A DNA stretch of 40,935 bases from a virus. Location: the IMG/VR virus record IMGVR_UViG_3300043425_000923, positions 1-40,935 of that record; one strand, given 5' to 3'. Both the position numbers and the translations under genes were made by a program. Shown in pieces: positions 4,491 to 40,935 of the stretch; within the stretch, counting starts at the first letter, position 1, and each line of letters starts with the position of its first letter. The notes under the pieces were generated by a model. That model ran no database searches and was not told the DNA's origin. It saw only the letters and a program-made list of their open reading frames with translations.

Positions 4491-4511
4491 ACACAGTTTT
4501 GATAACTGTGT
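4491..4511. repeat. 8-bp inverted repeat upstream of integrase
   Basis: ACACAGTT (4491-4498) and AACTGTGT (4504-4511) form a perfect 8-bp inverted repeat around a TTGAT spacer. It lies in a distinctly AT-richer 128-base gap (4427-4554) before the integrase. It could be part of attP, an integrase or excise binding site, or an operator. No tRNA 3' end is visible in this gap. Confidence 0.45.
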
Positions 4512-4554
4512 AGAAACTCCCACTTCTGAAATAGACCACCCTGGGGAGGAAAAC

Positions 4555-5460
4555 GTGGTTCAGGATCTTGAGTGGGTGCGGCTCCTGCATGCCTACCTGG
4601 GGGAACGGACAGCTCGACGAGATCTGTGCGCGCTCACCGTGCGACAGCATCGGTACACGCTGGTGGCGTTCATCGCCTGCATCGAGCACGGCGGCACCGT
4701 CGATCGTGACGTGGTGATCCGCTGGCTCGACGACTGCCGCACGATGCAGCCGGGGACGTTGCGCACCTCGATGGGGCGGGTGCGCACCTTCACCTCCTGG
4801 CTGTACATGGTGGGCGCGATCGTCGCCGACCCGATGGTCGAGTTCAACGCACCACGGGTGCCGAAGGCGGTGCCGCGGGCGTTGGGAGCGGACGAGCTGC
4901 AGCTGCTGTGGGACGTGCTGCCCGACTCGAGGGCGCGGCTGATCGTGGCGCTCGGCGTCGGGCTCGGGCTCCGACGAGCAGAGATCGCCGGGCTCGAGCT
5001 CGGTGACTGGGATCGATACAACCAAGTGCTGACGGTGCGGCACGACACCAAGGGCGGCAACCAGCGGCTGCTGCCCGTGCCCGACCATGTGGCCCGCCGC
5101 ATCGAGAGCTACCTGCGCGACCGGCCGCGCGGCGCCGGGCGGCTGATCCGCTCACAGGTGACGCCGGCCAGCGGCATCAACGCCGACCGCATCGGCAGGA
5201 TGATGACGGCCTGGATGCTCGAGGCCGGCGTGAAGGAAGCGCCGTGGGATGGGCGCTCGACGCACGCGCTGCGTCACTCGTTCGCACAGATGCTGTACCG
5301 CCAGGGCGGCGACCCCGACCTGCGGCTGGTGCAGCACGCACTCGGCCATGCGCACCTGTCCTCGACCGAGGTGTACATGCGTGCAGCGGTCGACACCGAA
5401 CGGCTGCGGCTGGCGATGGCGAACGTCGACATCGGCGGGCTCCCGCCGACGGCCGCCTGA
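4555..5460 (+). CDS. Tyrosine recombinase / integrase
   Basis: This 301-aa protein has an N-terminal SAM-like core-binding domain (about 1-95) and a catalytic domain with the full set of residues: Arg140 (GLRRAEI), Lys166 (DTKGG), His237 and Arg240 (THALRHSF), His265 (ALGHAH) and nucleophile Tyr274 (TEVYMRA). The length is that of XerC/D and simple phage integrases. GTG 4555 was chosen because GGGGAGG lies 5 bases upstream; longer in-frame starts lie in AT-rich non-coding-looking sequence. It should integrate and excise the prophage at a host attB, possibly with help from the upstream HTH protein. Its stop is 1 base from the stop of the converging 10-kb late gene, leaving no room for a terminator. 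Confidence 0.93.
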   Translation: MVQDLEWVRLLHAYLGERTARRDLCALTVRQHRYTLVAFIACIEHGGTVDRDVVIRWLDDCRTMQPGTLRTSMGRVRTFTSWLYMVGAIVADPMVEFNAPRVPKAVPRALGADELQLLWDVLPDSRARLIVALGVGLGLRRAEIAGLELGDWDRYNQVLTVRHDTKGGNQRLLPVPDHVARRIESYLRDRPRGAGRLIRSQVTPASGINADRIGRMMTAWMLEAGVKEAPWDGRSTHALRHSFAQMLYRQGGDPDLRLVQHALGHAHLSSTEVYMRAAVDTERLRLAMANVDIGGLPPTAA

Positions 5461-11400: not shown

Positions 11401-14400
11401 TCACCTTGCCCGACTTCCACGTCTCGGCCAGCTCGGCGGCAGCCTCCAGCGCGGCGCGATGCTTCGCCGAGAGATTCTTGTTGTCGAGGCCGACGCCACC
11501 GAGGTTGTCGTTGAAGACGACCCGATCGCCGTTGATGGCCTCGTCGGACTTGAAGGTCAGCTGCTGGGAGAGGTAGTCGTTGATCGTCTCATCGGCCCGC
11601 CGAGTGACCTCGGCCGGCTTGGCGACCTCGGCGATCTTCCTGGGGATGCGCGTCTGCGTCGACGGCCGCGCCATCACCCCGTCGGGCGGGGTGACCATGC
11701 GAGGCACCTTGCGCTGCGGCGCCACCGGGGTGGCGGCGGCCGCGACCCCCTCGGCCTTGCCCTCGATGATGTCGATCGCCGACTGCGCCTGTGCGATGAG
11801 GCGCTGCTTCATGTCGGACGGGAACATCGACAGGTCGATGCGCCGGTTCACCACGTTGTACAGGTAGTCCGACGGGATGACGGCCGGTCGACCGTTGCGG
11901 GCCGTGGCGCGCTCGGCGGCGCGATCCATGTCGTTCTTCAGGTTCCCGAGGTACGTCTCGAGGATGCCCATCACCTCGGCGCGCTTCGTCTTCCTCGAGA
12001 GGCCGTCAACGTCTCGGAAGCGTTCGATGATCGAGCGGACGGTGTCGGCCTTCTTGACGGCGGCGAGGCGGTCCCTGAACGACAGGTACTCGTTGGTGGC
12101 GCGATCGAGGTTCTGGCTGCCGACGCGGGCGTTGTAGTCCGTGTAGTGGTTGGCCAGGTCGCCGAACTCGGCGCCGGGGTTCTCGAAGATGTCCTTGACC
12201 GCAGCATCCTGGGCGTCGCGGAACGCCCGCTGTGCGCTGTCGTACGGCGAGTCGAACTTCCCTCGACCGCCGGCAGCGCGCGCCTCGGCGATCAACCCCG
12301 TCTTCGACGGTTCCCGCACCCACCCCTTCGACTCCCGGTCGGGGTCCAGTTCGGCCATCCGCTTCGAGATCCCAGCGATCCGCTGCTCGACCTCGGGCTT
12401 CACCTTGCCCTTCCCGAGCTCGAGGAGGCGGTCGAGAGCCGAGCCAGGGCGGGCGTAGGCGCGGGACTTCTTCACCATGTCCCCAACCCGCTTCGCCAAC
12501 GCCTCAGCGTCGAACGAGCCGGGCGCGAGCTCACCGCGCACACCCATCACCAGGCCGACGGGCTTCCCGTTGCGCATCACCAACACCGGCTTGGTCGGGC
12601 TGTCACCGATGAACAGCTCGGTGCCGGGGCCGGCGACGGTGTTCAGCTTGTCGAGCTGCACGCCGATCGTGTTGGTGCCGTCGGACAGCAAGATGGCGTT
12701 CGTCTGATCCTCACCGATGAGGCTGCGCCCGATCGGCTCGGCACGCCGGTAGGCGCCCTTCTTGATCGCCTCGAGCGGCGCCGTCAGCAGCTTCATGAAG
12801 TCGGGCGCCTCGTTGCCGGTGGCCCTCCACTTCGTCTCGTCCTTGAACGAGCCCGACACCTTCTCGGAGTCGGGCAGGTAGGTGCCGGGCTCGGTGATCT
12901 TCCCGACCAACCTCGGCGGCAACGGTGCCATGAGGTAGGTGTCGGTGTACCACAGCTCCCCGTCGACGAGGTTCACCGGGAGCGATCGAGCGGAACCGAT
13001 GTGCGCCTTGATCGTCGCCTCGGCGCGCTGGGTCAGCACCTTCTCCGTCGGCGCTTCCCACTTCCGCTCGCCCTCGGCCTGGCGGTCGAGCTCGTCGGCG
13101 ATGGCGGTCAGCTTCTTCGCATCCGACGGCGACAGCTGCTCGTCCTTGGCGGCCTCGCGCAGCGCCGTCGAGAACTCTTCAGCGGTGCCGCGCTCCAGGG
13201 TCTTGACCCCCTGGTCGCGCAGCTCCTTGCGCTCCTTGTCGAGGCGGGTGTACTCGGCGTCGAGCTTGCTGGCGTTCGCCTCGGCCTCGTCGGCAGCCTT
13301 CTTCGCCCTCTCGAACTCGACTCGAGCGCGTGCGGGGCGGGTGCGCGGAGTGTCGGGTGCCGCCGTGGCAGCCTCGGCCGGCTTCTCCGGTGCGCGCTCG
13401 GCGACACGGGAGAGCTTCGTGGTGCGCTTCGGTTCCGTCGGCGTCGACGACCGGCGCAGCTCGCTCCCGGCGGGCTGCGGTGCAACCTCGGGCTCGGGCT
13501 GCGGAACCACCTCGGGCTCCGGTCGAGGAGCCGCCGCCGGTGCCGCACCACCGCCACCCGAAGGGGGTTCGGGCGTGTCAGGGGAGGACGGGCCTGACGA
13601 CGGGGGGACATCCGGCGGCGGCGGCTCGGTACGCGGAGCACGGGCAACCTTCGCCCGGCTCACGCGCGACTGCTGAGTCCTGCGCAGCTCGGCCTCACGC
13701 GCCTTCAGCTCCTCGACGCGCTGGGCCTGCTTCTCGACGGCAGCGAGCTTCTCATCGACGTTCGCCCCACCACGCTGCAGCTCGGCGTCGTAGTCGGCGT
13801 ACAGGCGGCGCAGGTTCTGGCGGGCTCGCACCAGCATGTTGCGAGCACGGCGCTCCACCTCGACGGCGCGCTGCACCGACTTGCCGCGCTCCATGATCGT
13901 CGACAGCCGCGGCGGTGCCGGGATCTCGTCAGCGAGCAGCGACGAGATCCTCGCCTGCACCTGGGTGCGGTTCATGTCCTTGAACGCACGCATCTCCTGG
14001 CGCTGCAACACCTCACGGCGCCCCTCGAGGCGACGGCGCTGCCGCTGTTGCTCGACCGGCAGAGGCTCCGACCCCATCTCGGCGGCCGTGATCGGCCGGC
14101 CACCGACACCCTGGCGGCCCATCTCGGGCAGGATGTCGTACATCTCGCGCATCGCCGGGCTCACCCGGTTGATGAACTCGGCGTCGGCAGCCGGGAGACG
14201 ACCGAGGGCGTCGTCGATGAGGATCTTCGCCACGTCGGGCGTCACGATCTGCGACGAATCGGAAGCGCCTTCGAACAGCGTCGACAGCTGGCCGGCAACC
14301 CGATCCATCACCGCGGCCTGCTCGGCAGGGGTGGCCGCCGCCTCATACTCGCGCGCCCAGCCAGCCACCTGCTGGTCGAGGTCTCCGATCGTCTTCGCCA

Positions 14401-15466
14401 CCGTCGCCTTCGACAGGTTGATGTACTCGGGGTCTTCGCGCGACAGGCGCCGACCCGTCTCCTTCGACACCTCCTCGACGATGGTGCCGGGCTGGGCCAC
14501 ATCCATCTGTGCCTTCAGCAGCTGATCCTCGAGGGGACGCTGTGCCACGTCGGCGAGCGCCTGCCCCTCAGGGGTGAGGCGGGAGAACAGTGCGCTGCGA
14601 CCGACACGGGTGCCGACGAGCCCGTTTGCCGCCACCTCGGACAGACGCAACGGCCGCGAGCCCGTGCGGGCGATCTCGAAGGGGCGACCGAGACGTTCGG
14701 TGACGGCCCGCTCGACGAGCGGAGCGGCGGCGTCGCCGAGCTTGCCCGACGCCCACCGGATCGCCGGGAACGGCTGGCTGGCGACCGTGTCCACCACACG
14801 ACTGCCGTGCTTCAGCATCGTGCCGGCGCGCTCGGCGGCCTGTGCCGCCTCGAGATACCCGCCCTCGTTCAGCAGTCGAGCGACACCGGAGCCCCTCGCA
14901 CCCGCCTGAGCACCCCGAGCGACAGCCTGCGTCGCCGCCTCGCCGATCGTGCCAGCAGCAGCACCGGCTTCGGCTGCGCGCGCTGCCGCACCGGCGGCCC
15001 CGGCGCTGCCAGCGGAGCCGAGTGCCTTGCCGAGGCCACCTGCGACGATGGCAGCGTTGCCGAGATCCTCGAGCACGACACCGACGATCTCGCCCCGCTC
15101 GATCGCCCGCAGGTAGCGCGACGGGTGACGCAGCCGCATGACCGAGTTGCCCAACGAACGCGCCACCATGTCGCCGAACGGCAGGTACTCGTTCGTGAAG
15201 TCGCCGAAGGAGTCGACATCCACGTCGCCCTGGGCTGCATCCCACGCCAGGTGGAACGGTGAAGCGACCGTCTGCGCGGCCTTGCCGGCGAACTCGGCCA
15301 GGCCGCCGGGAAGGCCGCGCAGCACGTCACCGAACTGCTCGAAGAGGCTCGGCGCCGGGGTGTCACGGGTGAGCTTGGAGATCGGGGTGTAGCCCGACCC
15401 GCCAGAGCTGGTGCCGAACTTGCGGTAGCCGCCGACGGTCGAGCCGGCAGACGCCAGGTCACCCAT
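5462..15466 (-). CDS. Giant internal virion (ejection) polyprotein, about 3334 aa
   Basis: This single frame is about a quarter of the genome. From the start it has an Ala-rich hydrophobic region (about 135-190), charged coiled coils (about 330-600), a Pro-rich linker (about 610-690), a beta-rich region with WYTDTYLMAPLPP and KPVGLVMGVR (about 830-990), and a DUF6884-like domain (about 1510-1640; VISCGNSKLG, DLYTSDYF, ILSAKHGYLP, PYEVSF). A Gly/Ala/Pro linker follows (about 2120-2170), then helical repeats and a hydrophobic C-terminal region (about 2920-3155; ARWYINNTIGN, VFPWWSWIRHST) resembling polyvalent-protein C-terminal domains (LPD38-like, tentative). It is last in the late operon after two other internal-protein candidates. 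I infer a capsid-stored protein ejected with the DNA, as in T7 gp16 or the 3500-aa N4 protein, but I see no RNA polymerase motifs. ATG 15466 lies 1 base after the previous stop. Confidence 0.8.
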   Translation of the reverse strand: MGDLASAGSTVGGYRKFGTSSGGSGYTPISKLTRDTPAPSLFEQFGDVLRGLPGGLAEFAGKAAQTVASPFHLAWDAAQGDVDVDSFGDFTNEYLPFGDMVARSLGNSVMRLRHPSRYLRAIERGEIVGVVLEDLGNAAIVAGGLGKALGSAGSAGAAGAAARAAEAGAAAGTIGEAATQAVARGAQAGARGSGVARLLNEGGYLEAAQAAERAGTMLKHGSRVVDTVASQPFPAIRWASGKLGDAAAPLVERAVTERLGRPFEIARTGSRPLRLSEVAANGLVGTRVGRSALFSRLTPEGQALADVAQRPLEDQLLKAQMDVAQPGTIVEEVSKETGRRLSREDPEYINLSKATVAKTIGDLDQQVAGWAREYEAAATPAEQAAVMDRVAGQLSTLFEGASDSSQIVTPDVAKILIDDALGRLPAADAEFINRVSPAMREMYDILPEMGRQGVGGRPITAAEMGSEPLPVEQQRQRRRLEGRREVLQRQEMRAFKDMNRTQVQARISSLLADEIPAPPRLSTIMERGKSVQRAVEVERRARNMLVRARQNLRRLYADYDAELQRGGANVDEKLAAVEKQAQRVEELKAREAELRRTQQSRVSRAKVARAPRTEPPPPDVPPSSGPSSPDTPEPPSGGGGAAPAAAPRPEPEVVPQPEPEVAPQPAGSELRRSSTPTEPKRTTKLSRVAERAPEKPAEAATAAPDTPRTRPARARVEFERAKKAADEAEANASKLDAEYTRLDKERKELRDQGVKTLERGTAEEFSTALREAAKDEQLSPSDAKKLTAIADELDRQAEGERKWEAPTEKVLTQRAEATIKAHIGSARSLPVNLVDGELWYTDTYLMAPLPPRLVGKITEPGTYLPDSEKVSGSFKDETKWRATGNEAPDFMKLLTAPLEAIKKGAYRRAEPIGRSLIGEDQTNAILLSDGTNTIGVQLDKLNTVAGPGTELFIGDSPTKPVLVMRNGKPVGLVMGVRGELAPGSFDAEALAKRVGDMVKKSRAYARPGSALDRLLELGKGKVKPEVEQRIAGISKRMAELDPDRESKGWVREPSKTGLIAEARAAGGRGKFDSPYDSAQRAFRDAQDAAVKDIFENPGAEFGDLANHYTDYNARVGSQNLDRATNEYLSFRDRLAAVKKADTVRSIIERFRDVDGLSRKTKRAEVMGILETYLGNLKNDMDRAAERATARNGRPAVIPSDYLYNVVNRRIDLSMFPSDMKQRLIAQAQSAIDIIEGKAEGVAAAATPVAPQRKVPRMVTPPDGVMARPSTQTRIPRKIAEVAKPAEVTRRADETINDYLSQQLTFKSDEAINGDRVVFNDNLGGVGLDNKNLSAKHRAALEAAAELAETWKSGKVIDRVDPSTLQVGEVVRSNSIDVTGTVVWVNDAGYAAMIAPDGKVWGISANERVELLRQTPFPHAERLKAERQRRATEAPKPQVSDYTVELRQLSAKSKPQLLQRLGVDIPKAWRKRKGAQRGMNAEDVFDGLVPERGKAFDRTGREMNRKPLRSVEEVAKEAGDDAIVVISCGNSKLGTAAAAADLYTSDYFKKNLEAARAITGGDDSRIRILSAKHGYLPLDEVIEPYEVSFKFSDEGVIDVNTLRRQARGLPDKPVVVLGGKEYTGAVVTTIGDRHVVAPFVGSEGIGAQKKIAGEIAGSARRAESLKLSKQAPKPTVTVTAPKVPTGDSVKVTVSGDGLRAYDQLMNQRPSTKPAIPYLDVVDGAAYVDPRDVPKVVEAINDRRAELLAKVMARNGAGAEGAMRMVNGLDDIAAQLEEGTPQDWSKAAEPASPATPKLAAAAKPRPAAPRNVVEPKSKLAKSYTRSIKEARVDADGSVHMSFPGESGAAEYRALDDQAKKAWEAAGRDVERLVSDGVVDAIDGSEVRLGDVILNENTGRIYVVAEGSPHPEYEYKLPGDEDAVLHLSPPPPGVPLERVGYRFGHSHPTGGGSVRAYADETVYRMGRMPGFENLAFDTLPPVDTPGHVLTYRMSEMSSNALMKELAAEKIRPLKEWDAVARWRWDNLEDAEKMRAGGAVGEVASMEQLRPGNVVEWDGERAMVAKVTVDDASLTSNPRAYIELLFDADGRSRKISLPSDAELVRFARDLTDPAGRPLDGGGQPAPVSAVAAPEPEPAPAAAGGGAQPPAEPPVPPASGAGGAGAGGGDMNVGRERAKLPTARGRRLEAERTLGEAERRATSAQVKLARKAAGPEPVTITKARDAVSTALDNVERTGRNLEAVKTFGELTPEERTASRQWRRSYTKDGVLKTRSAVERINRQVGAAEERASVAARRHAQLVDQIERINRDIADVPHLLSRPAQAEIRDAVHGTSQSLPAAKRLPEAKVVKERGWIELEDGRWGRVVGPNMVEVIGPNGKPVLGPDRMPILKADGWNVRMSGGKVESVPFEGKWRYVGERSGAVGTLQRQLRRLRDPFGFLANREESLNVSKEELADLAASGMPTTRKVTVGKGVVWDTVRTAVNRTFGEDAVDTLIEVGDDLANAASDRERYSYLEANADRLGLNDGELRALEESMRVDEKLATMDAVVTQRHNDGAWMDLPHELGRLTEDLEFAPQEWQNARNRVRFNFDDRRARSLADDALNVEAMPPRWRAPAQFARRQVRWYLDEARRLANDGDHLAASEQLKIAAEVATNIRDLAEMGVDPIYVAGGIPAKSIGTVETVSKSPLPDEKMRRTPFKPLTVEGAQRTQLDRMVRRLRNETYDRVEQTFGKTVSQVPGLDGWLRDFIAENDRYPARDEFVDTARQMGWVPLNRAKGLGATKAVDNAGRLLEDLQQAEKNYDDAIRSGDDARIQRARLELDAADTAHQRSVNATPKVLREAWGRYETARVKLAKMLDQDPEGGSLEGRYSTDPDVLAAAQKEFDQRAAELAAAEEAALPKLVPDTIAREMMRDASLWDRGTLPGFRLLTRANRAYKTQVLPLSARWYINNTIGNVIMAGVFGGVGPVELFRQIKRLRSEVGFKGAGRKSQSMLEADLLGGALDVGGVRGGRIVQSGLFENQRRGLGLAEFDTPDARTRPGRALRKVTDYGYGVNEFFDNVSRSAVYLSKLERNVKEMVRRGLVDETNPSASVEAAAKAALRDTLRAMGDYTNMAPWQRKYLRQVFPWWSWIRHSTVAAMRLPIEHPMRAAWLAQLSVLANEEGLTGAELAFFSGKWMLGDGSSVNLGSLSPLENPLENPILNPTSLLRSMSPALKVGIAGLTGIDMGRLQQVTKPPKDRARGAFGQQVAEPLAYDPAGLLGYAFGQLPMARNLRDFIDGPSIRYGTGEPIKDRSGRPIPNGKTRAGALAAMFGVPFPETMTEAERKRREKQRERLSQ

Positions 15467-15467
15467 G

Positions 15468-16919
15468 TCAGTACCCCGTGTAGGCGTCGAACACCGCACG
15501 CTGGACCGCGTCCAGCTGGCGACGGATCTGGAACAGCGACTCTTGGAACTCGGTGTCGTCGGCAGCGTTCTGCTCGGCCTGGCTGGCGTCGGCCAGGGCG
15601 GCGTTGAGCATCTCGTCTTGGTTGAGCATGGTGTACACCTGCTCGGGCTTCATGTTCGCCGACCGCGCCAGCTGCTCGACATCCATGCCGATCTGCTGCG
15701 ACATGGTGTCGTAGTCGGCCTGCGCCGAATCCTTGGCCGCCTGCTCGCTCGCTCGAGCCGCCTCGGCGTCGGTCGGACCACCCGAGATCCGGTTCGTGTA
15801 GTCGGCGTAGCTCTCGCCGACGTTGTACGTCGGGGTCAGCGCCTCGATGAGATCCTTCACCTCGACGTTGGCGAACATCGGGTCGTTCATGGCGATCCGG
15901 TTCATCGCCTCCTGAATGACCGACGGGTCGTTGAGCAGTCTCGACTGCTCACGAACGGCACCACCGAGCTGATCCTTGGCGCCGGCGATGCTCTTCGAGA
16001 GGCTGCGACGCAGCTCGGGCGGCACGGTGTCCTTCAGCTGCTTCTCGTAGGCACCCTCGAGCGACTTGTCACCCATCCGGTAGCCGACCAGCGCCTGCGC
16101 CTGGGGGTTCGACTTCGCTGCGATCATGCGCAGCCGGGCCGCCTCGCGCCCCATCGCCTGCTGGGCCTGCTTGGTGTACAGGCCCGCATCGGTGTTGAAC
16201 TCCATGCCCTTGGCGCGCTCGTCGTAGTCCTTCGCGCGCTTCGCCAGGTCAATGCCTCGAGCGACCGGCTGCTCGTAGTTCTGGCGCAGCCAGTCGGCGA
16301 ACGGCATCTTCGCCCGCTCCGACCCCTTGGCAGCGAGCTCGATGCGGTTCTTGTTCGTCATCAGCTCGCCCATGCCACGGGTGATCTGGCGGGCTCGGAT
16401 CGCTTCCTTGCGGACGTTGCCGCCCACCTCAGCGGTTGCCTTGTCGGCGAGCGCCTTCTTCAGCTCGTTCACGGTGAACTTCGTGCTGCCACCGCCGCCA
16501 CCGCCACCGCCGCCACCGCCCGACGAGCGACGCTGCGCCTGGAGCAACGCCAGCTGCGCCTTCGTCTGTGCGTCGATGACCGATGCCTGGTCGCGGGCGA
16601 TCGTGTCGACCAGCGAGCGAGCCGACTCGACGTTGTGGGCGTACTCGTTCCAGCGGGAGGTGCGGCGCGCGGTGTCGGCGTTGAAGTCGGCCGCCTGCTG
16701 GGTCATGTTCAGGGCGGCCATGTCGTAGGGCTCGCTCGTCGCCGACTCGATGCTGCCCATCGATGCACCAGGCGCACCGCGCCCAGCTGCCTCTGCGAGC
16801 GCCGTGTCGACGGCCGCCTTCTTGCGGCGCGCCACCTCCTGCTGGGCCTCGAGGTAGGCGTTGGCACCGTCGATGCCGCCGGCTGCCTGTGCGCTCAGAA
16901 GTGCCGAATCTGCGCTCAT
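15468..16919 (-). CDS. Probable internal virion protein
   Basis: This 483-aa, mostly helical, Ala/Gln-rich protein starts MSADSALLSAQAAGG. It has a run of 11 glycines (around residues 134-144) separating an N-terminal coiled coil from a C-terminal helical half. No enzyme motif is recognised. Its size, composition and place between the small structural genes and the giant ejection protein match podovirus internal core proteins. ATG 16919 overlaps the previous stop as ATGA. The function is inferred from context. Confidence 0.6.
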   Translation of the reverse strand: MSADSALLSAQAAGGIDGANAYLEAQQEVARRKKAAVDTALAEAAGRGAPGASMGSIESATSEPYDMAALNMTQQAADFNADTARRTSRWNEYAHNVESARSLVDTIARDQASVIDAQTKAQLALLQAQRRSSGGGGGGGGGGGSTKFTVNELKKALADKATAEVGGNVRKEAIRARQITRGMGELMTNKNRIELAAKGSERAKMPFADWLRQNYEQPVARGIDLAKRAKDYDERAKGMEFNTDAGLYTKQAQQAMGREAARLRMIAAKSNPQAQALVGYRMGDKSLEGAYEKQLKDTVPPELRRSLSKSIAGAKDQLGGAVREQSRLLNDPSVIQEAMNRIAMNDPMFANVEVKDLIEALTPTYNVGESYADYTNRISGGPTDAEAARASEQAAKDSAQADYDTMSQQIGMDVEQLARSANMKPEQVYTMLNQDEMLNAALADASQAEQNAADDTEFQESLFQIRRQLDAVQRAVFDAYTGY

Positions 16920-33778: not shown

Positions 33779-34219
33779 ATGGCACTCGACGACATCATCA
33801 ACGACGCCCTCAGCAGCGGCGGCAAATGGCTCAAGATGGGCAAGGTCGGCGACAAGATCGTCGGCGACATCGTCGACATCGACAAGCGCGACAAGCGCGA
33901 CCTCGAGGGCAACGTCGTGCTCGGCAAGAAGTCCGGTGAACCCCGCAAGGAATGGGTCGTCACCATCAAGACCGACGAGCGCGAAGACGGCGAGGACGAC
34001 GGCGTCCGCAAGTTCTCGGCCAACGAGAGCATGCAGCGCGCCCTCAAGGAAGCGATCAAGCGGGCCGGCTTCACCAGCGGCAACCAGCTCGAAGGAGCGA
34101 AGCTCGCCATCCAGATGACCCGCGAGCCCGAAGACCGCTTCTCGCAGGCCGACTACGCCGCCCAGGTGAAGGCCGGCGAACGCAAGCCCGTCGCCGACCT
34201 CGACGACCTGTTCGGCTGA
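33779..34219 (+). CDS. Probable single-stranded DNA-binding protein
   Basis: This 146-aa protein has a short N-terminal helix, a beta-rich centre (KVGDKIVGDIVDIDKRDKR; KEWVVTIKTD) consistent with an OB-fold, and an acidic tail ending DLDDLFG, like the protein-binding tips of SSB and T7 gp2.5. It sits between the nuclease and the primase-helicase. AAGGAG precedes ATG 33779. The fold is inferred; no canonical SSB motif is claimed. Confidence 0.6.
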   Translation: MALDDIINDALSSGGKWLKMGKVGDKIVGDIVDIDKRDKRDLEGNVVLGKKSGEPRKEWVVTIKTDEREDGEDDGVRKFSANESMQRALKEAIKRAGFTSGNQLEGAKLAIQMTREPEDRFSQADYAAQVKAGERKPVADLDDLFG

Positions 34220-34226
34220 CACCCCC

Positions 34227-34264
34227 TGCCCGGCCGTCGCTCCCGCTCAGGTGACGGCCGGGCA
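34227..34264 (+). terminator. 12-bp perfect hairpin after the SSB-like gene
   Basis: TGCCCGGCCGTC (34227-34238) pairs fully with GACGGCCGGGCA (34253-34264) around a 14-base loop, 8 bases after the stop. No U-run follows, so it may be an intrinsic terminator of the high-GC type or a processing/stability element. It is directly followed by the tRNA-like element. Confidence 0.7.
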
Positions 34265-34268
34265 CCCC

Positions 34269-34326
34269 GCCCCAGGCAGGCAGCTCGCTGCGTCACGCCG
34301 ATCGGGTTCGACTCCCGACTGGGGCA
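34269..34326 (+). other. tRNA-like minimal cloverleaf 1
   Basis: GCCCCAG (34269-34275) pairs perfectly with CTGGGGC (34319-34325), followed by A at the discriminator position. Next to it is an ideal T-arm: stem TCGGG/CCCGA (34302-34306 and 34314-34318) around loop TTCGACT. Only 26 bases lie between acceptor and T-arm, containing one small hairpin (GCAG-CTCG-CTGC), so normal D and anticodon arms are absent and it cannot be a standard tRNA. It lies 28 bases upstream of ATG 34355. It may be a degenerate or mimic tRNA, a processing signal, or an attachment-site remnant. Confidence 0.6.
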
Positions 34327-34354
34327 CACCATCCGCTGCGAACAGGAGAACAAC

Positions 34355-34537
34355 ATGGTGGACCCCGCAATCGCCGAGCAGGTGCCCGGCCTTCTCGCAA
34401 CCCTCCGCTCGACCGCAATCGAGCTCCACAGCCAAGGGCTCAACGCCCTCGGCGACCTGCTCCTCGACACCGCCACCGTGCTCGAGGTGTTCATCGAAGA
34501 GCTGGAGAACCTCGGCGCCGTCAACGTGGAGTGGTGA
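34355..34537 (+). CDS. Hypothetical small helical protein
   Basis: This 60-aa protein is one or two amphipathic helices rich in Leu and Glu (VPGLLATLRSTAIELHSQGL; LLLDTATVLEVFIEELENL). AGGAG lies 5-6 bases before ATG 34355. Its stop overlaps the primase-helicase start as TGATG, so it may be a helicase-loading or regulatory partner; this is inference from position. Confidence 0.65.
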   Translation: MVDPAIAEQVPGLLATLRSTAIELHSQGLNALGDLLLDTATVLEVFIEELENLGAVNVEW

Positions 34538-36273
34538 TGATCGACCCCATCGACCTCGTCGAAGACCGCCTCGCCACCGCCGGCTGCGCACCACGGCGCC
34601 GCGGCGACAAGATCATCGCCCGCTGCCCCGCCCACGACGACTCCACACCCTCATTCAACGTCGCCAGAGGCACCAACCAGCCCGTCATCCTCGACTGCCG
34701 GGCAGGATGCAGCACCGAGAACATCCTCCACGCCCTCAACCTCACCTGGGCCGACATCTCCACCCCCCTCGAGAAGATCGACCACCGGGTCGTCGCCACC
34801 TACGAGTACCGCGACGAGCACGGCGAACTCCTCTACAGCGTCCAACGCATCGAACCCGGCTACGACGGCAAGACCAAAAGCTTCAAGCAGCTCCCCGCCA
34901 ACGGAAAAACCGGCCCCGGCAGCATGCAAGGCGTCCGACGAGTCCCCTACCGGCTCCCCGCCATCCTCGAAGCCGTCCGCAACGACACCGTCGTGTTCAT
35001 CTGCGAAGGCGAGAAAGACGCCGACAACCTCGTCAAGGCCGGCTACGAAGCCACCACCAACGCAGGCGGCGCCCAAAGCTGGACCGCCAGCTGGAACGGA
35101 TGGTTCGAAGGGGCGCGAGTCGCCGTCGTCATCGACCGAGACGCCGCCGGCTACGAACGAGGCGCCTACATCGCCTCCACCATGCACTCCATCGCCCGAG
35201 ATGTCACCATCCTCGAGCCCACCGACGGCAAAGACGTGACCGACCACCTCAACGCCGGGCACGCCGTCACCGACCTCAAGCGCATCAGCCTCGCCGCCTG
35301 CATCAGCAACGGCAAAAAGCTCGAACAAGAAGCCGCACCAGCCGTCGACTCCAGCCGGCTACGCCAGTACCTCATCGACTGGAACGAGCTGTGGACCGCC
35401 GACCACTCAGCCGACTGGCTCGTCGAACCCTTCATCGCCACCGGCCGCGCCCACACCCTCTACGCCGGGGCCAAGACCGGCAAATCGCTCTTCACCCTCA
35501 ACGCCTGCGTCAAAGCCGCCCTCGGCGTCGGCGCATTCGGCATCCCCACCAACGCCAACCCCGTCGACATCCTCTACGTCGACCAAGAGATGACCCCCAG
35601 CGACCTCATCGAACGCATCGCCGACATGGGATACGACGGCCAGGTCTTCGACCACCTCCACTACATGCAGCTCGCCGCCCTCCGACCCCTCGACACCCCC
35701 GAAGGCGGCGGCGAACTCGTCGAACTCGCCATCGAGCTCGGCGTCCAGCTCGTCGTCATCGACACCACCAGCCGAGTCATCGCAGGCGAAGAGAACTCCG
35801 CAGACACCTTCCGCTACCTGTACATGAACTGCATCCAACCCCTCAAAGCCGCCGGCATCGCCAGCCTGCGCCTCGACCACGCCGGCAAAGAAGCCGGCCG
35901 AGGACAACGAGGCTCCAGCGCCAAGAACGACGACGTGGACGTGGTCTACCGCCTCGACCGCACCGAAGAGGGATACGCCCTCGCCGCCACCCACCGCCGC
36001 ATGGGTTGGGTGCCCGAACACACCGCATTCACCATGCGCACCGACCCCCTCGACTTCCTCCTCGGCCTCGAAGCCGTCCCACCCGGCACCCGCGACCTCA
36101 TCATCGCCCTCGACCGCCTCACCGTCCCCCTCGACGCCTCCGTCCGCACCGCCTCCGCAGCCCTACGAGCCGAAGGCCACAAGGCCCGCACCGCCGTCGT
36201 CTCAGCCGCACTCAAAGCCCGTCGGCGCACCCACATCGCCCCCGTCGTCGAGGACGGAGACGAGCTCATCTGA
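34537..36273 (+). CDS. Primase-helicase (zinc, TOPRIM, RecA-like ATPase)
   Basis: This 578-aa protein has an N-terminal zinc module (Cys30, His33, Cys54, Cys58), a TOPRIM domain (FICEGEKDADN with Glu157; VVIDRDAAG with Asp200/Asp202) and a RecA/RepA-type ATPase (Walker A GAKTGKS 311-317, YVDQE 347-351, Walker B LVVIDTTSR with Asp409). The C-terminal 100 residues look like a winged-helix or flexible tail. It is the main replication protein and should prime and unwind DNA at the adjacent iteron array, recruiting host polymerase. ATG 34537 overlaps the previous stop; GTG 34531 is an alternative. Confidence 0.9.
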   Translation: MIDPIDLVEDRLATAGCAPRRRGDKIIARCPAHDDSTPSFNVARGTNQPVILDCRAGCSTENILHALNLTWADISTPLEKIDHRVVATYEYRDEHGELLYSVQRIEPGYDGKTKSFKQLPANGKTGPGSMQGVRRVPYRLPAILEAVRNDTVVFICEGEKDADNLVKAGYEATTNAGGAQSWTASWNGWFEGARVAVVIDRDAAGYERGAYIASTMHSIARDVTILEPTDGKDVTDHLNAGHAVTDLKRISLAACISNGKKLEQEAAPAVDSSRLRQYLIDWNELWTADHSADWLVEPFIATGRAHTLYAGAKTGKSLFTLNACVKAALGVGAFGIPTNANPVDILYVDQEMTPSDLIERIADMGYDGQVFDHLHYMQLAALRPLDTPEGGGELVELAIELGVQLVVIDTTSRVIAGEENSADTFRYLYMNCIQPLKAAGIASLRLDHAGKEAGRGQRGSSAKNDDVDVVYRLDRTEEGYALAATHRRMGWVPEHTAFTMRTDPLDFLLGLEAVPPGTRDLIIALDRLTVPLDASVRTASAALRAEGHKARTAVVSAALKARRRTHIAPVVEDGDELI

Positions 36274-36299
36274 CCCCCGAAGCAGCGTTACCCGAGCTC

Positions 36300-36449
36300 G
36301 GGAAACGCACAAATGTTCGATGGGAAACACTTCGGGAAACACCAACCCGCTGACCTGGGGAAACACACGGGAAACACCCTGGGAAACACCGGGAAACGCA
36401 GGATCGGTTGTTTCCCGTTTCCCCCTCTCTATAGGGGAAACGGGGAAAC
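36300..36449 (+). other. Iteron array, candidate replication origin
   Basis: Eleven copies of GGGAAAC occur here: direct at 36300, 36322, 36334, 36358, 36369, 36381, 36391, 36435 and 36443, and inverted (GTTTCCC) at 36410 and 36417. Spacings of the first seven are 22, 12, 24, 11, 12 and 10 bases, close to one or two helical turns, so bound proteins would align on one face. The array starts 27 bases after the primase-helicase stop. I infer an origin bound by a phage or host initiator. Reading frames across it are not convincing genes. Confidence 0.75.
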
Positions 36450-36706
36450 GCTCCCAGGAACCAGCCCCAAACCTGCCATGCATTGCACAATCCCGATGCT
36501 CCGGTCTAGGAACGCATGGGATCCCATACATGCAGGGGGGCGCCCCTCACCGGGGGCATGGGGGGGCGGGGCGCTCGCCGTCGGGGCGGGGGGCGACGGA
36601 TGCCCCTTCCCCTCGACAACCGGCGGGGTTCGTCGTCGAGCTGGTCGCCACCTCCACGCCGGGCACCGTTGCGTCACGTCACTGGAGTGCCCGGTAGCGG
36701 TGCAGG
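36450..36706. other. Gene-free G-rich region beside the iterons
   Basis: No supported gene lies here. It contains the 12-bp perfect palindrome ATGGGATCCCAT (36516-36527), and a very G-rich stretch (36535-36593) with runs of 6, 5, 7, 4, 4 and 6 G on the + strand, able in principle to form a G-quadruplex. A short ATGCATTGCACAATC segment (36479-36493) partly matches the sequence beside the operator at 37399. These features may belong to the origin. Confidence 0.55.
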
Positions 36707-37357
36707 TCAGCGGCCGTCGGCCTCGACCACGGCGCCGGCCAGGTTCGCTCGCACCTTCTCCACCAGTGCGCCGAGATCCTGCCCGGCCGCCTCGATCGCC
36801 GCCGGCCGCCGTCGGCCTGGCGCTACAGCTGCCCGCTCCTGCAGTGCCTGCACCGCTGCGGCCGCCCTCACGATCCCATCGAGGAGGGCAGCGGCATCGG
36901 CACCGCTGCGCACCAGCTCGCCAGTCCGCGCCGCGGTGGCCAGTGCCCGAAGCACGGCGCGTAGGGTGTGCATCGCACCTGTGGCCGCCGAGTCGAGCAT
37001 TTCGGCGGGGTCGGTGGGTTCGGTGCGCCGGGTGCCGTGTGCGGCTTGTGCCTTCGCTAGTGCGGCTGCCTGTTCCTCGAGCCGGCGGCGTAGGGCGGCG
37101 GCTTCGGCTCGTGCTGCACGCGCGTCGGCTTTCTGCTCGAGCAGCTGGGCGCGTGCTTCTCCTAGTTGTGCCTCCAGTCGCTGTGTGAGCTTGTCGAGCT
37201 TTGCGGCGGCGGCGACCTGTTCCCGTTCTCGCTCCTTGTTGGCCCGGCGGGCGGCGGCGCTACGGGCTTGCATTTCTCGGGCGGTGTCGGCGGTGATGGG
37301 GGGACCGGGCGGGGTGGGTTTGCGGGGCGTGGTTGCGGGGTCGGGGTCGTTCTGCAT
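36707..37357 (-). CDS. Coiled-coil protein next to the origin
   Basis: This 216-aa protein has a Pro-rich N-terminus (DPATTPRKPTPPGPP), a long Ala/Glu/Arg/Gln coiled coil (about 30-110; REREQVAAAAKLDKLTQRLE onward) and a helical C-terminal region (MHTLRAVLRALATAARTGEL). Long coiled-coil proteins beside plasmid origins (KfrA-type) act in partition, but this one lacks an evident HTH, so that is only an analogy. ATG 37357 was chosen because CAGACT lies 6 bases upstream (possible leaderless start); ATG 37399 falls in the operator. It points toward the iterons and converges with the primase gene. Confidence 0.65.
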   Translation of the reverse strand: MQNDPDPATTPRKPTPPGPPITADTAREMQARSAAARRANKEREREQVAAAAKLDKLTQRLEAQLGEARAQLLEQKADARAARAEAAALRRRLEEQAAALAKAQAAHGTRRTEPTDPAEMLDSAATGAMHTLRAVLRALATAARTGELVRSGADAAALLDGIVRAAAAVQALQERAAVAPGRRRPAAIEAAGQDLGALVEKVRANLAGAVVEADGR

Positions 37358-37398
37358 GTGTGCAGTCTGTCGGCCTGGTTCCTGCCACTGGTGGAACA

Positions 37399-37427
37399 TG
37401 CAACAGGTTGCACAATCGTGGTAGTGT
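37399..37427. promoter_or_regulatory. Full operator and rightward promoter
   Basis: TGCAACAGGTTGCA (37399-37412) is the exact reverse complement of the operator at 3928-3941. On the + strand TAGTGT (37422-37427) is a plausible -10 with 17 bases to the TGCAAC half-site, placing the operator over the -35 region of the small-protein operon starting at 37479. It is also upstream of the leftward coiled-coil gene, so it may control both directions. Confidence 0.7.
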
Positions 37428-37478
37428 CGAGTCGGGCACCGTGCAAGGGATGCCCCACGACAATGGAGGAATGAGCAA

Positions 37479-37688
37479 ATGTTGGATCTGTTGAACCCTG
37501 CAGCGTTCTGGCTGGGCGTTGCGTTCTGTGTTGCCGCTCTCGGCGCACTCTGGGCGATCCTCGACGGTTGGGCGTTCGAACGTGGCCGCCTGGCTGGGCG
37601 TGCTGAGGTGCGCGAGGAGATGAGCGAGACGGCCGATGAGCTCGCCGAGCTCCGCTACTGGCATGTGCCCGCGAATGGCGGCAAGTGA
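37479..37688 (+). CDS. Small membrane protein
   Basis: This 69-aa protein begins MLDLLNPAAFWLGVAFCVAA with one transmembrane helix (about 8-28), then a charged helix (ERGRLAGRAEVREEMSETAD). GGAGG lies 9 bases before ATG 37479. It is the first gene after the operator at 37399. Superinfection exclusion or another membrane role is possible, but nothing specific is recognised. Confidence 0.65.
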   Translation: MLDLLNPAAFWLGVAFCVAALGALWAILDGWAFERGRLAGRAEVREEMSETADELAELRYWHVPANGGK

Positions 37689-37978
37689 TGGGCGGCCCGA
37701 TGCGTCCCGATCAAGTGCGCACGGTGGACGACGCCCTGTCGTTGGTGCGTTGGCTCGGCCTCGACGATCGTACGGTGGCGATCCTGTTGCCGTCGGTGTC
37801 GGCGGTTCTGCTGGTCGATGACTGCCCGGTTCCGCCGGTCGAGATCCTCGACATGCTGACTGCACAGGGGCGCATGGTGCGCGCCGAGTTCGCCGACCAG
37901 CTCGACGACGGCGACGCCCCGGCGGCGTTCCTTGTGTTGCCCACTCCGGTGGGCGATCTGATGGGGGTCGAGCTGTGA
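37685..37978 (+). CDS. Hypothetical protein
   Basis: This 97-aa protein starts at GTG 37685 or ATG 37688, overlapping the previous stop. It alternates helices and short strands (DQVRTVDDALSLVRWLGLDD; TVAILLPSVSAVLLVDDCP) and ends LPTPVGDLMGVEL. No family is recognised. It is part of the overlapped early operon. Confidence 0.6.
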   Translation: MMGGPMRPDQVRTVDDALSLVRWLGLDDRTVAILLPSVSAVLLVDDCPVPPVEILDMLTAQGRMVRAEFADQLDDGDAPAAFLVLPTPVGDLMGVEL

Positions 37979-38157
37979 TTCTCCGTTGGCATTCCGGCGC
38001 TCACTGCCTGGGCGTGTTGAAGCCCGACCGCTCGGCGTACATGGTGCGCCTGCGTTACCGCTACCTGCGTTCGTACATGGGGCGGCGTGCTGCCCGCCTG
38101 TGCCTGCTGTCGGAGCTGAACGCTGCCCGGGCGGTGTCGTGGTCGGTGCCCGCCTAG
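37975..38157 (+). CDS. Hypothetical small basic protein
   Basis: This 60-aa protein starts at GTG 37975 overlapping the previous stop (GTGA). It is Arg-rich (VRLRYRYLRSYMGRRAARLC) and may bind nucleic acid. It is followed by a 109-base gap with a hairpin (38168-38195). Confidence 0.55.
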   Translation: MILRWHSGAHCLGVLKPDRSAYMVRLRYRYLRSYMGRRAARLCLLSELNAARAVSWSVPA

Positions 38158-38167
38158 TTGCGCCGTC

Positions 38168-38195
38168 TCCCGCATCGGCTCCGGTCGGTGCGGGA
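38168..38195 (+). terminator. Weak hairpin in the 38158-38266 gap
   Basis: TCCCGCA (38168-38174) pairs with TGCGGGA (38189-38195) across 14 bases that contain further CGG/CCG pairing. No U-run follows. It may reduce readthrough into the gene at 38267, which has its own strong ribosome-binding site. Confidence 0.4.
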
Positions 38196-38266
38196 CGCGG
38201 TGCGCCTAGTCGAGGTGCGCCCCGGTCGCTTTGCAAGGGCGGCCGGTGTCTGTTGGAGGGGTTCTG

Positions 38267-38647
38267 ATGATTGAAACGCTGTGGCCGGGTTCGTGGTTCC
38301 GCATGCTCGATGTCGTCGACGGTGCGCCGTGTCCGGTGTTCGTCGGGGTCGACACGCTCGATGGTGCTCTGAACATCTACGCCGGTGGCCCTGAGGGGTG
38401 CGGCTTCACGATCGAGGTTGACGGGGGCGTGGTGCGGGTGATGCGCCGTTACGGCTCGATCTTCGAGGAGGTGGACCGCTGCCGCGTGTCGCCGACGTGG
38501 CCGGCGCCGGTCGAGCAGCCGCGTGTGCGGGTCGGTGCCGCTGACTGTTTCGAGGTGCGGGCCGGTAATGGCACGTTCTACCCGTTCGGGCGGGATCTCT
38601 CGACGGCGCTCCGCATGGGCGGGCTTGCTGTGCGGGGTGAGCTGTGA
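38267..38647 (+). CDS. Hypothetical protein
   Basis: This 126-aa beta-rich protein (MIETLWPGSWFRMLDVVDG; LNIYAGGPEGCGFTIEVDG) has a good ribosome site (TTGGAGGGG) before ATG 38267. The C-terminal part (YPFGRDLSTALRMGGLAVRG) ends in an overlap with the gp88-like gene (GTGA). It is not recognised. Confidence 0.6.
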   Translation: MIETLWPGSWFRMLDVVDGAPCPVFVGVDTLDGALNIYAGGPEGCGFTIEVDGGVVRVMRRYGSIFEEVDRCRVSPTWPAPVEQPRVRVGAADCFEVRAGNGTFYPFGRDLSTALRMGGLAVRGEL

Positions 38648-39486
38648 CGTTGCGCGCTGGTGCTCAACAGGTCGAGGCGTTCGGGGGCGTGGCGGTGTCG
38701 CTGCGCCCTCGTGGCGCGTTCGTCCGTTCGTACGATCGCAAGGTGTCGCCGCTGGTGCGGGTCCGGTCGACTCAGTCGGCCGCGGTGATCGGCAACAGTG
38801 TCGGCACGACGGCGGGTGTCACCTGCCCTGGTCGTACGTCGTTCTGCTCCTCGTGCTACGCCGAGAACCTGCAGCGGGCACGTCCGGCGGTGGCTGACGT
38901 TGTCGAGCGAAACACGGCGGCGTTGTTGGCCGGCGATCCGGTCGAGCTGCACGCTGCAGCGGTCGCCGAGTTCTGCGCCGAGTTCGACCGCTACCTGGCG
39001 CGCGGCCTGGTGCGGGAACGGGATCGGATCTATCGCCACAAGTGGGATGGCGACGTGGCGACGGTGGAGGAGGCGCGCGCGATCCGTTCGGTTGCCCGCC
39101 GGTTTCCGACTGTCCGGTTCTGGATCTACACGCGTTCGCTCCGGTGGGTTGGCTCGATGCTCGGCCCCGAGAACCTGACTGTGTACCTGTCGGCCGATGC
39201 GGAGAACGTCGGCCAGGTGCGCCGCCTCGTCGAGCGGTACGGCGAGCGGGTGAGGGTGGCAGCGTGCGCCTCGACGCAAGCGGAGGCGGCCGAGATCCAC
39301 GCCGCTACCGGGTCGGCTCGACCGTTGCGGGCCTGCCCTGAGAACGTCGGCCGGTTGCCGCTGGTGGTGCCTGTCGAGCGGGGTGGCGAGCTGGTGCCCG
39401 GCTCCTGGGGGCGGGGTGCTTGCGCCGCCTGTCGTATCTGTGTCGTCGGCTCGGCTGACGTGGCTTTCGCTACCCGCAAGCGGTAG
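38644..39486 (+). CDS. gp88-like protein with cysteine clusters
   Basis: This 280-aa protein resembles the mycobacteriophage gene product 88 family: GNSVGTTAGVTCPGRTSFCSSCYAE (Cys61, Cys68, Cys71), a HKWDGDV segment, PTVRFWIYTRSLRWV, and NLTVYLSADAENVG. A second cluster near the C-terminus (GACAACRICVVG) has CxxCxxC spacing. The six cysteines could hold zinc or an iron-sulfur cluster. The biochemical role of gp88 proteins is not established to my knowledge. GTG 38644 overlaps the previous stop. Confidence 0.7.
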   Translation: MTLRAGAQQVEAFGGVAVSLRPRGAFVRSYDRKVSPLVRVRSTQSAAVIGNSVGTTAGVTCPGRTSFCSSCYAENLQRARPAVADVVERNTAALLAGDPVELHAAAVAEFCAEFDRYLARGLVRERDRIYRHKWDGDVATVEEARAIRSVARRFPTVRFWIYTRSLRWVGSMLGPENLTVYLSADAENVGQVRRLVERYGERVRVAACASTQAEAAEIHAATGSARPLRACPENVGRLPLVVPVERGGELVPGSWGRGACAACRICVVGSADVAFATRKR

Positions 39487-39492
39487 CGGCCA

Positions 39493-39547
39493 GCGGTGCC
39501 CCTGGTGGGGCGGCTTCGGCCGGCGGGGTTCGATCCCCTGCACTGCA
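39493..39547 (+). other. tRNA-like minimal cloverleaf 2
   Basis: GCGGTGC (39493-39499) pairs with GCACTGC (39540-39546; one G-T pair), followed by A. Inside are a D-like mini-hairpin (CCCC-TGGT-GGGG), an anticodon-position hairpin with a TTCG tetraloop (CGGC-TTCG-GCCG) and a T-arm with loop TTCGATC closed by GCGGGG/CCCTGC. Acceptor and T-stems compete for one or two bases. Only 55 bases long and without an anticodon loop, it cannot decode. It lies between the gp88-like stop and ATG 39592, with a small CCCGG/CCGGG hairpin (39550-39568) after it. Confidence 0.55.
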
Positions 39548-39591
39548 CTCCCGGTCATGGTGGCCGGGTCGGAACCCTGAGAGGGGATGCA

Positions 39592-40167
39592 ATGAGTACG
39601 GAACGTGTGAGCGTGGGTTGCGATCGGTGCAGCCAGCTCGTCGAGGACGGCGGCGGGCACCGCGTCGGCGAGTACCGGGTGTGCGCCGAGTGCGCCGCTT
39701 CGGCGTGGGCGGCGGCGACGCGTGAGCGTGTGAGCGTGCAGGCGGCCGGCGGTGTGAGCGTCGAGCGTGTCGGGGCGGGTGAGCGGTGGCCGCACCGGTT
39801 CCTGCTGGCATGGGAGGACGAAGGTGGGCGAGCGTGGCGCGGGAGCGTGGAAGCGGACAGCGAGTCGGCTGCACGTCAGGCGTGGATCGATGGCGATCTC
39901 GATGCCTCGCATCCGCTGTTCACGGTGCCCGACCTGGCCGCCAACGAGGTGGTGCTGCACGACCCGTACACCGAGCGTCGTTCGGCGTGGGTTCGGGTCG
40001 ATGAGACGGGCCTGTGCCTGCGCCCGGTGGGCACCCATCCCGACAACTGCAATCTCATCGTGGAGGCTCACTCGGGGCACCAAGTGCGGATCTACACGGG
40101 CACCGATGCGGAGCGCGTCTACTGCTTCAACCTGAAGACCGGAGCTTTCGAAGGGGTGGAGTCGTGA
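39592..40167 (+). CDS. Zinc-finger N-terminal hypothetical protein
   Basis: This 191-aa protein begins MSTERVSVGCDRCSQLVEDG with a zinc ribbon (CDRC and CAEC, about 18 residues apart). The rest is a mixed alpha/beta domain (RFLLAWEDEGGRAWRGSVEA; CNLIVEAHSGHQVRIYTGTD). AGAGGGG lies 5 bases before ATG 39592; longer starts run through the tRNA-like element and are rejected. Function unknown. Confidence 0.65.
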   Translation: MSTERVSVGCDRCSQLVEDGGGHRVGEYRVCAECAASAWAAATRERVSVQAAGGVSVERVGAGERWPHRFLLAWEDEGGRAWRGSVEADSESAARQAWIDGDLDASHPLFTVPDLAANEVVLHDPYTERRSAWVRVDETGLCLRPVGTHPDNCNLIVEAHSGHQVRIYTGTDAERVYCFNLKTGAFEGVES

Positions 40168-40409
40168 GCGTCGACGAGTGCTGGCAGTGCGGCGAGGAGC
40201 TGACCGATGACACGGTCGGCACGGTCGGCGGCGACGGCTTCGCAACGTGCGAGGACTGCGACCAGGCCGACGTGATGAAGAGCGCGCACGCGCGCATCGA
40301 GGAGATGGGCAGCGACGAGCTGTGCGACCTGGCGCACGAGCTGCTGCGCGAGTTGGAAGAAGCGAACCCGGCCGCAGCGACGGCCATTGCTGAAGGGATC
40401 ACGACATGA
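40164..40409 (+). CDS. Small zinc-ribbon protein
   Basis: This 81-aa protein starts at GTG 40164 overlapping the previous stop (GTGA). It contains CWQCGEEL and CEDCDQ, a compact zinc ribbon, then a helix (DELCDLAHELLRELEEANPA). It is one of several zinc-ribbon genes in this operon. The window's first 25 bases copy its last helix. Confidence 0.65.
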   Translation: MSVDECWQCGEELTDDTVGTVGGDGFATCEDCDQADVMKSAHARIEEMGSDELCDLAHELLRELEEANPAAATAIAEGITT

Positions 40410-40678
40410 AGACCACGACCCGTACCTATCTGGTGACGGTCGAGCTGGCCGGCGACGACCCGGCCCGGTTCGACCGGGAGATCACCAACTACCTGGCCAG
40501 CGGCGACGGCCCATTCGCTGAGGACTTCGGTCCCGATGCATGGGGCGGCTACGACGGGCCGCGCGCGATGAGCGTGAGCGTGAGCGTGAGCGTGAGCGTG
40601 CAGCCCGAGCCGCTGCCCGACGAGCCGCTGCTCGACTGCGTGTGGCAGGACGGAGCGTGGGTGGAGGTGAAGCTGTGA
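40406..40678 (+). CDS. Hypothetical protein with Ser-Val repeats
   Basis: This 90-aa protein starts at ATG 40406, overlapping the previous stop (ATGA). The N-terminal half (TYLVTVELAGDDPARFDREI) resembles a small alpha/beta domain. The C-terminal half holds five Ser-Val repeats encoded by GAGCGT units (40570-40599) and the shared WQDGAWVEVKL ending. The window start carries a fused variant of this gene. Confidence 0.6.
   Translation: MKTTTRTYLVTVELAGDDPARFDREITNYLASGDGPFAEDFGPDAWGGYDGPRAMSVSVSVSVSVQPEPLPDEPLLDCVWQDGAWVEVKL
40570..40599 (+). repeat. GAGCGT hexanucleotide repeat, 5 copies
   Basis: Five perfect GAGCGT units, compared with three at the matching place at the window start. Units keep the reading frame. 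Confidence 0.85.
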
Positions 40679-40935
40679 GCGTGCAGCCCGAGCCGATCGT
40701 GCCCGACGAGCCGCTGCTCGACCGCGTGCTGCACGACGTGTTCGTGACGGCGATGGAAGGCGGCATCGGCTACTGGTCGGGCTGCTCGTCGTACCGGTGG
40801 AGCCTCGACGGCGGCGAGGTCGACGACCTGACCGGGTTCCGCGCGGTGATCCACGACCACGTCATGCCCGGCCCTGCGATCACGATCAACCGCGACGTGA
40901 TCCTGCGGGGCTACCTGCGTGCCCTCGACTTGGAT
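40675..40935 (+). CDS. Hypothetical protein, cut by the window edge
   Basis: This partial gene (87 codons, no stop) starts at GTG 40675 overlapping the previous stop. It is homologous to the protein at 92-502 (shared VLHDVFVTAMEGGIGYW and DVILRGYLRALDLD). Joining to base 377 continues the frame to the stop at 502, which supports circularity. Function unknown. Confidence 0.7.
   Translation, partial: MSVQPEPIVPDEPLLDRVLHDVFVTAMEGGIGYWSGCSSYRWSLDGGEVDDLTGFRAVIHDHVMPGPAITINRDVILRGYLRALDLD

Follow-up and report, generated by a model that had tools for sequence, protein, structure and literature searches.

Minimal tRNA-like elements between early genes of a temperate phage point to an apparently undescribed viral RNA family that may punctuate polycistronic mRNA

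Introduction

Small tRNA-like RNAs with reduced arms are exemplified by mascRNA and menRNA (Rfam model RF01684), which lie at the 3' ends of animal long non-coding RNAs and are released by RNase P and RNase Z. Like RNase P, RNase Z reads the acceptor stem and T-arm of its substrates. Here we describe two structures of this general build, E1 and E2, located between early genes in a viral DNA stretch of 40,935 nucleotides (nt), which covers positions 1 to 40,935 of IMG/VR record IMGVR_UViG_3300043425_000923 and is referred to below as the window.

An acceptor stem with T-stem and T-loop alone is cleaved by RNase P, for which a ruler of 12 base pairs (bp) has been proposed, and natural phage substrates of the enzyme are known in M3 RNA and the antisense C4 RNA (PMC11143913). 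The minihelix substrates AT1 and pMini3bpUG (PMC11143913) have in common with the phage elements an acceptor stem, a T-stem with its T-loop, and a stack of ~12 bp; they are, however, synthetic single molecules ending in a 3' RCCA, whereas the phage elements are natural, repeated, intercistronic, devoid of CCA and only presumably cleaved. Cutting by host RNase P is proposed for the elements as it is known for M3 and C4 RNA, but the latter are individual RNAs of single phages and form no intercistronic repeat family. In mitochondrial tRNA punctuation (PMC8601606), the folds that mark cut sites between genes are functional tRNAs; the phage elements would mark the message in a similar way, although they are non-decoding and their processing is putative. 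The SAS and ESAS repeats of cluster K mycobacteriophages (PMC3203893) and the repeats of Microbacterium phages (PMC7302621) are also multi-copy and located upstream of starts in early regions. Unlike the present elements, SAS consists of a 13-bp ribosome-site motif and ESAS of an imperfect inverted repeat, with no T-loop or acceptor described. Taken singly, tRNA-like RNAs, minimal RNase P substrates and tRNA punctuation have precedents; what appears to be new is a repeated phage element that combines them.

Results

Two tRNA-like structures in the window

The presence of two tRNA-like structures in the window was confirmed (Table 1). In E1, a 7-bp acceptor and a 5-bp T-stem, in which every pair is Watson-Crick, form a tRNA-type stack of 12 bp; the T-loop is TTCGACT and the acceptor is followed by an A. 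The position of the D and anticodon arms is taken by a middle of 26 nt in which a mini-hairpin stands alone, and folding indicates that this hairpin competes with an alternative pairing of 34276-34279 to the same 3' strand. The minimum-energy fold of E2 is a four-way junction made of a 5-bp acceptor and a 6-bp T-stem, two mini-hairpins and a trailing A. Measured against the canonical acceptor/T stack with a TTCRA T-loop, E1 therefore has 12 bp, and E2 has 11 bp with a canonical loop (TTCGATC). The initial annotation had assigned a 7-bp acceptor to both elements, which holds for E1; in E2, such an acceptor can form only with G39540 paired there and then leaves the T-stem at 4 bp; its reading of a TTCGA-containing T-arm and a following A was borne out in both.

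Neither element qualifies as a canonical tRNA. At 55-58 nt, neither has the regular set of a D-arm and an anticodon arm with a 7-nt loop; ARAGORN calls no tRNA at either, no Rfam family matches them at its curated cut-off, and RF00005 has no match across the record, in agreement with their original description as short and non-decoding. When RF01684 was applied at loose thresholds, E1 ranked first in the window (28 bits, E 2.4e-5) and E2 second (12.8 bits, E 0.26). The curated cut-off of 42.5 bits was reached by neither, and no sign of common descent with mascRNA or menRNA was seen.

Chance does not readily account for the pair. A strict structure of 5 + 7 bp is expected 0.025 times per window of the same composition, and a relaxed descriptor applied to the whole window recovered exactly E1 and E2, as compared with 0.33 matches expected. 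On the sense strands of the intergenic gaps, the two relaxed matches compare with an expectation of 0.007, and a count of two did not occur in any of 4000 shuffles.

A family of intercistronic elements in viruses

Searches with GP88, the 146-aa protein, the terminase and the exonuclease revealed no close relatives of the window phage in the searched collections, and the capsid protein alignment was too divergent to serve as a query. A primase search identified 39 distant relatives; in the records of these and of six related phages, the mascRNA model at E 0.01 matched real tRNAs only. Since no near relative was found, the elements themselves were followed. Literal E1 patterns had no matches in viral contigs, while a sensitive blastn search with E1 led to two unannotated sites, one in Gordonia phage VanLee and one in cluster A mycobacteriophages. 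VanLee proved to carry about 17 copies. In its leftward operon at 72-82 kb, each of the 16 within-operon gaps that span 40 nt or more holds one element of the same build, the sole element-free gap being the one ahead of the first gene. VanLee also encodes a Ro-like RNA-binding protein (L054 23455-25368), which adjoins its only tRNA gene. In the cluster A mycobacteriophages AnnaL29, LadyBird, Loser and ArcherNM, an unannotated tRNA-like structure of ~100 nt (L050 1064-1166) lies 33 nt ahead of an early gene and has a T-arm resembling that of E1.

A degenerate pattern, written so that E1 would match and excluding ordinary tRNAs by length, occurred in at least 119 viral contigs. Among the matches listed, the three T-stem pairs that the pattern leaves free were all formed in 73 of 85 and at least two of them in all 85, and these free positions displayed all four Watson-Crick combinations (GC, CG, AU and UA). 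An alignment of 43 elements had 97.5% of its cells paired, compared with 78.8% in shuffles and 37-55% in slid registers, and contained 96 double-changed cells, compared with 35 in shuffles; these 43 were picked after the best-paired matches had been seen, and the free-position counts over all 85 are the fairer figure. The pattern itself dictated acceptor positions 1-4 and T-stem positions 52-53, which carry no information on covariation. Compensatory substitutions, for which the initial annotation had suggested aligning homologues, are present in relatives. In a set of 54 elements, purines predominate at base 73, and base 74 is invariably a pyrimidine (C in 42, T in the others). Archaeal matches of 43 nt to the degenerate pattern were dropped, as most of those tested proved to be portions of real tRNA-Asp genes.

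Two covariance models of the viral elements were built. Model R1 comprises the 43 aligned elements, with compact middles, and had no annotated phage record in its training set; model R2 comprises 18 relatives with longer middles, with the window excluded, and E1 is in neither training set. R1 gave 31 matches in total in VanLee, Cafasso, SWU2, Dagobah and the halovirus HSTV-2. All 31 lie between genes and have the same orientation as both neighbors, with a median spacing of about 9 nt past the stop and 46 nt to the start (typically 5-13 and about 30-50 nt, respectively). Phlei, Odin and Sheen also had matches, and none were found in Jasmine, Shocker, DS1 or other distant relatives. A DNA-level repeat or insertion element was considered and ruled out because of the covariation together with the strict sense orientation. 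In HSTV-2, a haloarchaeal tailed virus, an element of the same build is located upstream of gene 89 (L177 2985-3028), which suggests that the family may span archaeal viruses.

On actinobacterial chromosomes, R1 detected one to three clustered copies per genome examined, and any match at all was restricted to 3 of 198 sampled actinomycete genomes (the chosen centre being one of the three); such sparse, clustered copies fit mobile elements. Four R1 matches were also observed within about 2 kb of a Chloroflexota chromosome (L212 1111-3202, minus strand), possibly a prophage, and no Pfam match was found for the five proteins scanned at this locus. Two viral contigs carrying mini tRNA-like elements contain a pistol ribozyme (L065 4240-4305, minus strand) and a tmRNA match (L102 9251-9334, plus strand).

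The elements, about 40-60 nt in length and located between early genes, form a large and apparently undescribed viral family. No description of it was found in the collection of open-access papers to which the search was confined. The VanLee genome announcement leaves the elements unmentioned, and at the best matches in deposited phage records the site is mostly unannotated.

Membership of E1 and E2

E1 is clearly a member of this family. The covariance search that had been proposed at the outset, carried out with the models built here, matched E1 independently (R2: 36.6 bits, E 2.7e-4; the next match in the window has 16 bits), and its T-arm is the best R1 match in the window. E2 is ranked second by R1 (13.1 bits, E 0.94) and is recognized by R2 through its T-arm only (13.7 bits). 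The poor fit of R1 to both elements is attributable to their longer middles.

Given its fold, its placement and its match to the layout of another viral element, L087, E2 is probably a member as well. We consider it unlikely, though not negligibly so, that E2 is merely GC-rich DNA that folds by chance, leaving E1 as the only family member of the window. Such a reading would accommodate the modest stability of E2 relative to its own shuffles (z about -1), its scores of 13-14 bits with R1 and R2, and its 11-bp stack. It is at odds with the sense-gap shuffles, none of which yielded two matches, and with L087, which has the same three-hairpin layout and the same TGGT and TTCG loops. The location of E2 also speaks against it: E2 begins 6 nt past a stop codon and ends 44 nt ahead of the ATG at 39592, directly after GP88, and SWU2 has an element right after GP88 too. 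Adjacency to GP88 was tried as a general rule and abandoned, since it applies to SWU2 but fails in the further cluster A phages inspected. E1 is located 49 nt past a stop and 28 nt ahead of the ATG at 34355. Reading these distances back from the sequence verified the earlier placement of both elements in gaps of rightward operons.

Genome setting

The window virus is a temperate podovirus-like phage. Its genes include a P22-like portal, a terminase and a tyrosine integrase, and its major head protein is ~30% related to those of Arthrobacter, Microbacterium and Cellulosimicrobium phages. The features at and around the two elements are listed in Table 1. Each element is accompanied by a strong hairpin, which is upstream in the case of E1 and downstream in the case of E2, and a promoter/terminator scan for intrinsic terminators flagged neither element.

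Table 1. Coordinates of E1, E2, their parts and neighboring features in the window
Feature	Position	Strand	Basis or remark
E1, minimal tRNA-like element, 58 nt	34269..34326	+	12-bp acceptor/T stack; RF01684 28 bits; model R2 36.6 bits
E1 acceptor stem, 5' strand GCCCCAG	34269..34275	+	Sequence; partner CTGGGGC at 34319-34325
E1 mini-hairpin GCAG-CTCG-CTGC, replacing D and anticodon arms	34280..34291	+	Sequence; fold uncertain
E1 T-arm TCGGG-TTCGACT-CCCGA	34302..34318	+	Fold; top R1 match of the window
E2, miniature cloverleaf, 55 nt	39493..39547	+	Fold; RF01684 12.8 bits; T-arm only in R1/R2
E2 D-arm-like hairpin GCCCC-TGGT-GGGGC	39498..39511	+	Fold; L087 and VanLee elements share the hairpin/loop type
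E2 mini anticodon-like hairpin GGC-TTCG-GCC	39512..39521	+	Fold
E2 T-arm, 6 bp in minimum-energy fold, loop TTCGATC	39523..39541	+	Fold
146-aa gene upstream of E1, phrog_1911 (no assigned function)	33779..34219	+	Family search
Strong hairpin between upstream stop and E1	34227..34264	+	Fold of 34220-34360
Ribosome-binding site AGGAGA and ATG of 60-aa open reading frame	34344..34357	+	Sequence
60-aa open reading frame downstream of E1	34355..34537	+	No family match
Primase-helicase (AAA_25, Toprim-like), next in the operon of E1	34537..36273	+	Family search
GP88 gene (PF17338), ending 6 nt ahead of E2	38644..39486	+	Family search
Hairpin CCCGGTC-ATGGT-GGCCGGG between E2 and next start	39550..39568	+	Fold of 39480-39595
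191-aa gene downstream of E2	39592..40167	+	No family match

Other features of the window were noted in passing. A single open reading frame of 3345 aa (5462-15499, minus strand), with DUF6884 as its sole recognized domain, accounts for one quarter of the 41 kb. The operator-like perfect palindrome TGCAACNNGTTGCA is repeated at 3928-3941 and 37399-37412, both intergenic, and eight sites with at most two mismatches compare with 1.06 expected. Positions 40350-40935 resemble an imperfect repeat of the left end (1-400), which may reflect a circular relationship of the record or a duplication of genes.

Discussion

Structure, covariation in relatives, copy number and strict sense intergenic placement are the observed properties of the family. 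The interpretation we favor, and hold to be probable though far from secure, is that the elements are natural minimal substrates of RNase P and RNase Z that punctuate the polycistronic early mRNA; the cleavage, the enzymes and the effect on expression are deduced. Each element retains what tRNA-processing enzymes read, namely an acceptor/T stack of ~12 bp, a TTCGANT T-loop and a discriminator-like base, usually together with a D-loop-like GG, the decoding parts being gone. It would fold in the early polycistronic mRNA just past the stop of the upstream gene, where its 5' end would be cleaved by host RNase P, its 3' end would be processed by RNase Z or exonucleases, or both. The mRNA would thereby be split into units, with the next gene retaining its own ribosome-binding site. 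Punctuation in the manner of tRNAs is favored because a position after the stop and before the ribosome-binding site is what intercistronic processing needs; moreover, the prevalence of purines at base 73 and of C at base 74 agrees with an RNase P substrate, and the halovirus element fits an enzyme common to bacteria and archaea. Guidance of RNase P/Z had been one of several functions suggested for E1 and E2 in the initial annotation, and it fits best among them in view of the compensatory changes in relatives and the sense stop-to-start placement, its cleavage part being conjectural. The broader proposition, that many actinobacterial tailed viruses and some haloviruses use one element per gap and host RNase P/RNase Z to obtain single-gene messages, in analogy to mitochondrial punctuation but independently of it, seems to us evenly balanced.

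Several points weigh against punctuation. It rests on sequence, fold and placement, with transcript ends and cleavage deduced from them. The stack of E2 is 11 bp, and its family-model scores are below significance. No close homologues of E1 or E2 were found, and covariation is known from relatives only. Elements are confined to certain operons and gaps, being absent from the rightward operons of VanLee and from a 109-nt gap of the window (38158-38266). The base preceding the element is A in 31 of 54 cases, compared with the usual U in pre-tRNA, and no CCA is encoded in this set.

Rather than guiding cleavage, the elements might serve as tRNA-mimic decoys or ligands that, either excised or still within the mRNA, sequester or attract a tRNA-binding factor, mRNA processing being secondary. 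The conservation of elbow features (T-loop and GG) alongside the loss of decoding parts would agree with this, as would the coexistence in VanLee of about 17 copies and an encoded Ro-like RNA-binding protein. A decoy has no need, however, of a once-per-gap, always-sense site between stop and ribosome-binding site, and no Ro-like gene was recognized among the window proteins scanned. We regard this role as doubtful for all candidate partners taken together (RNase P itself, EF-Tu, modification enzymes, defence nucleases that act on tRNA, and Ro-like proteins of phages). In the absence of an anticodon arm, the elements are not bait for anticodon nucleases.

Equally doubtful is an uncut structural mRNA element that blocks exonucleases, protects the upstream 3' end, or shields or adjusts the translation of the gene that follows. 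Strong folds located just past stops and ahead of ribosome-binding sites would suit such a function, and start-linked SAS/ESAS repeats exist in other actinobacteriophages (PMC3203893). Nevertheless, a plain barrier would not require a TTCGANT loop, a GG and a stack of ~12 bp. Nor is the SAS motif enriched in the window: its 13-bp sequence GGGATAGGAGCCC has one match with two mismatches, as compared with 0.83 expected, and this is not at E1 or E2.

Finally, E1 and E2 could be decayed tRNA genes or remnants of tRNA-derived attachment sites. Phages often carry tRNA genes and phage attachment sites with tRNA 3' halves, the window encodes a tyrosine integrase, and partial tRNAs with deletions are known in haloviruses of the HF1 group (PMC7230728). 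We judge this origin very improbable. The 3' half of E1, to which the search was confined, occurs with at most two mismatches in none of 296 Actinomycetota genomes, a result that is provisional with respect to the true host. Both acceptor strands are retained, and the integrase gene (4363-5460) adjoins neither element. A multi-copy family, with up to 17 copies in relatives, compensatory changes and regular placement, is likewise difficult to reconcile with relics, and the attachment-site origin raised earlier finds no support.

If punctuation by minimal tRNA-like elements is correct, it would represent a widespread class of phage regulatory RNA that escapes standard tRNA and Rfam scans. The elements would provide a natural equivalent to the minimal RNase P substrate known from the test tube, and a phage version of mitochondrial tRNA punctuation. 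They would also offer testable sites in the culturable phages VanLee, Cafasso, SWU2 and Dagobah, and possibly compact RNA-processing parts.

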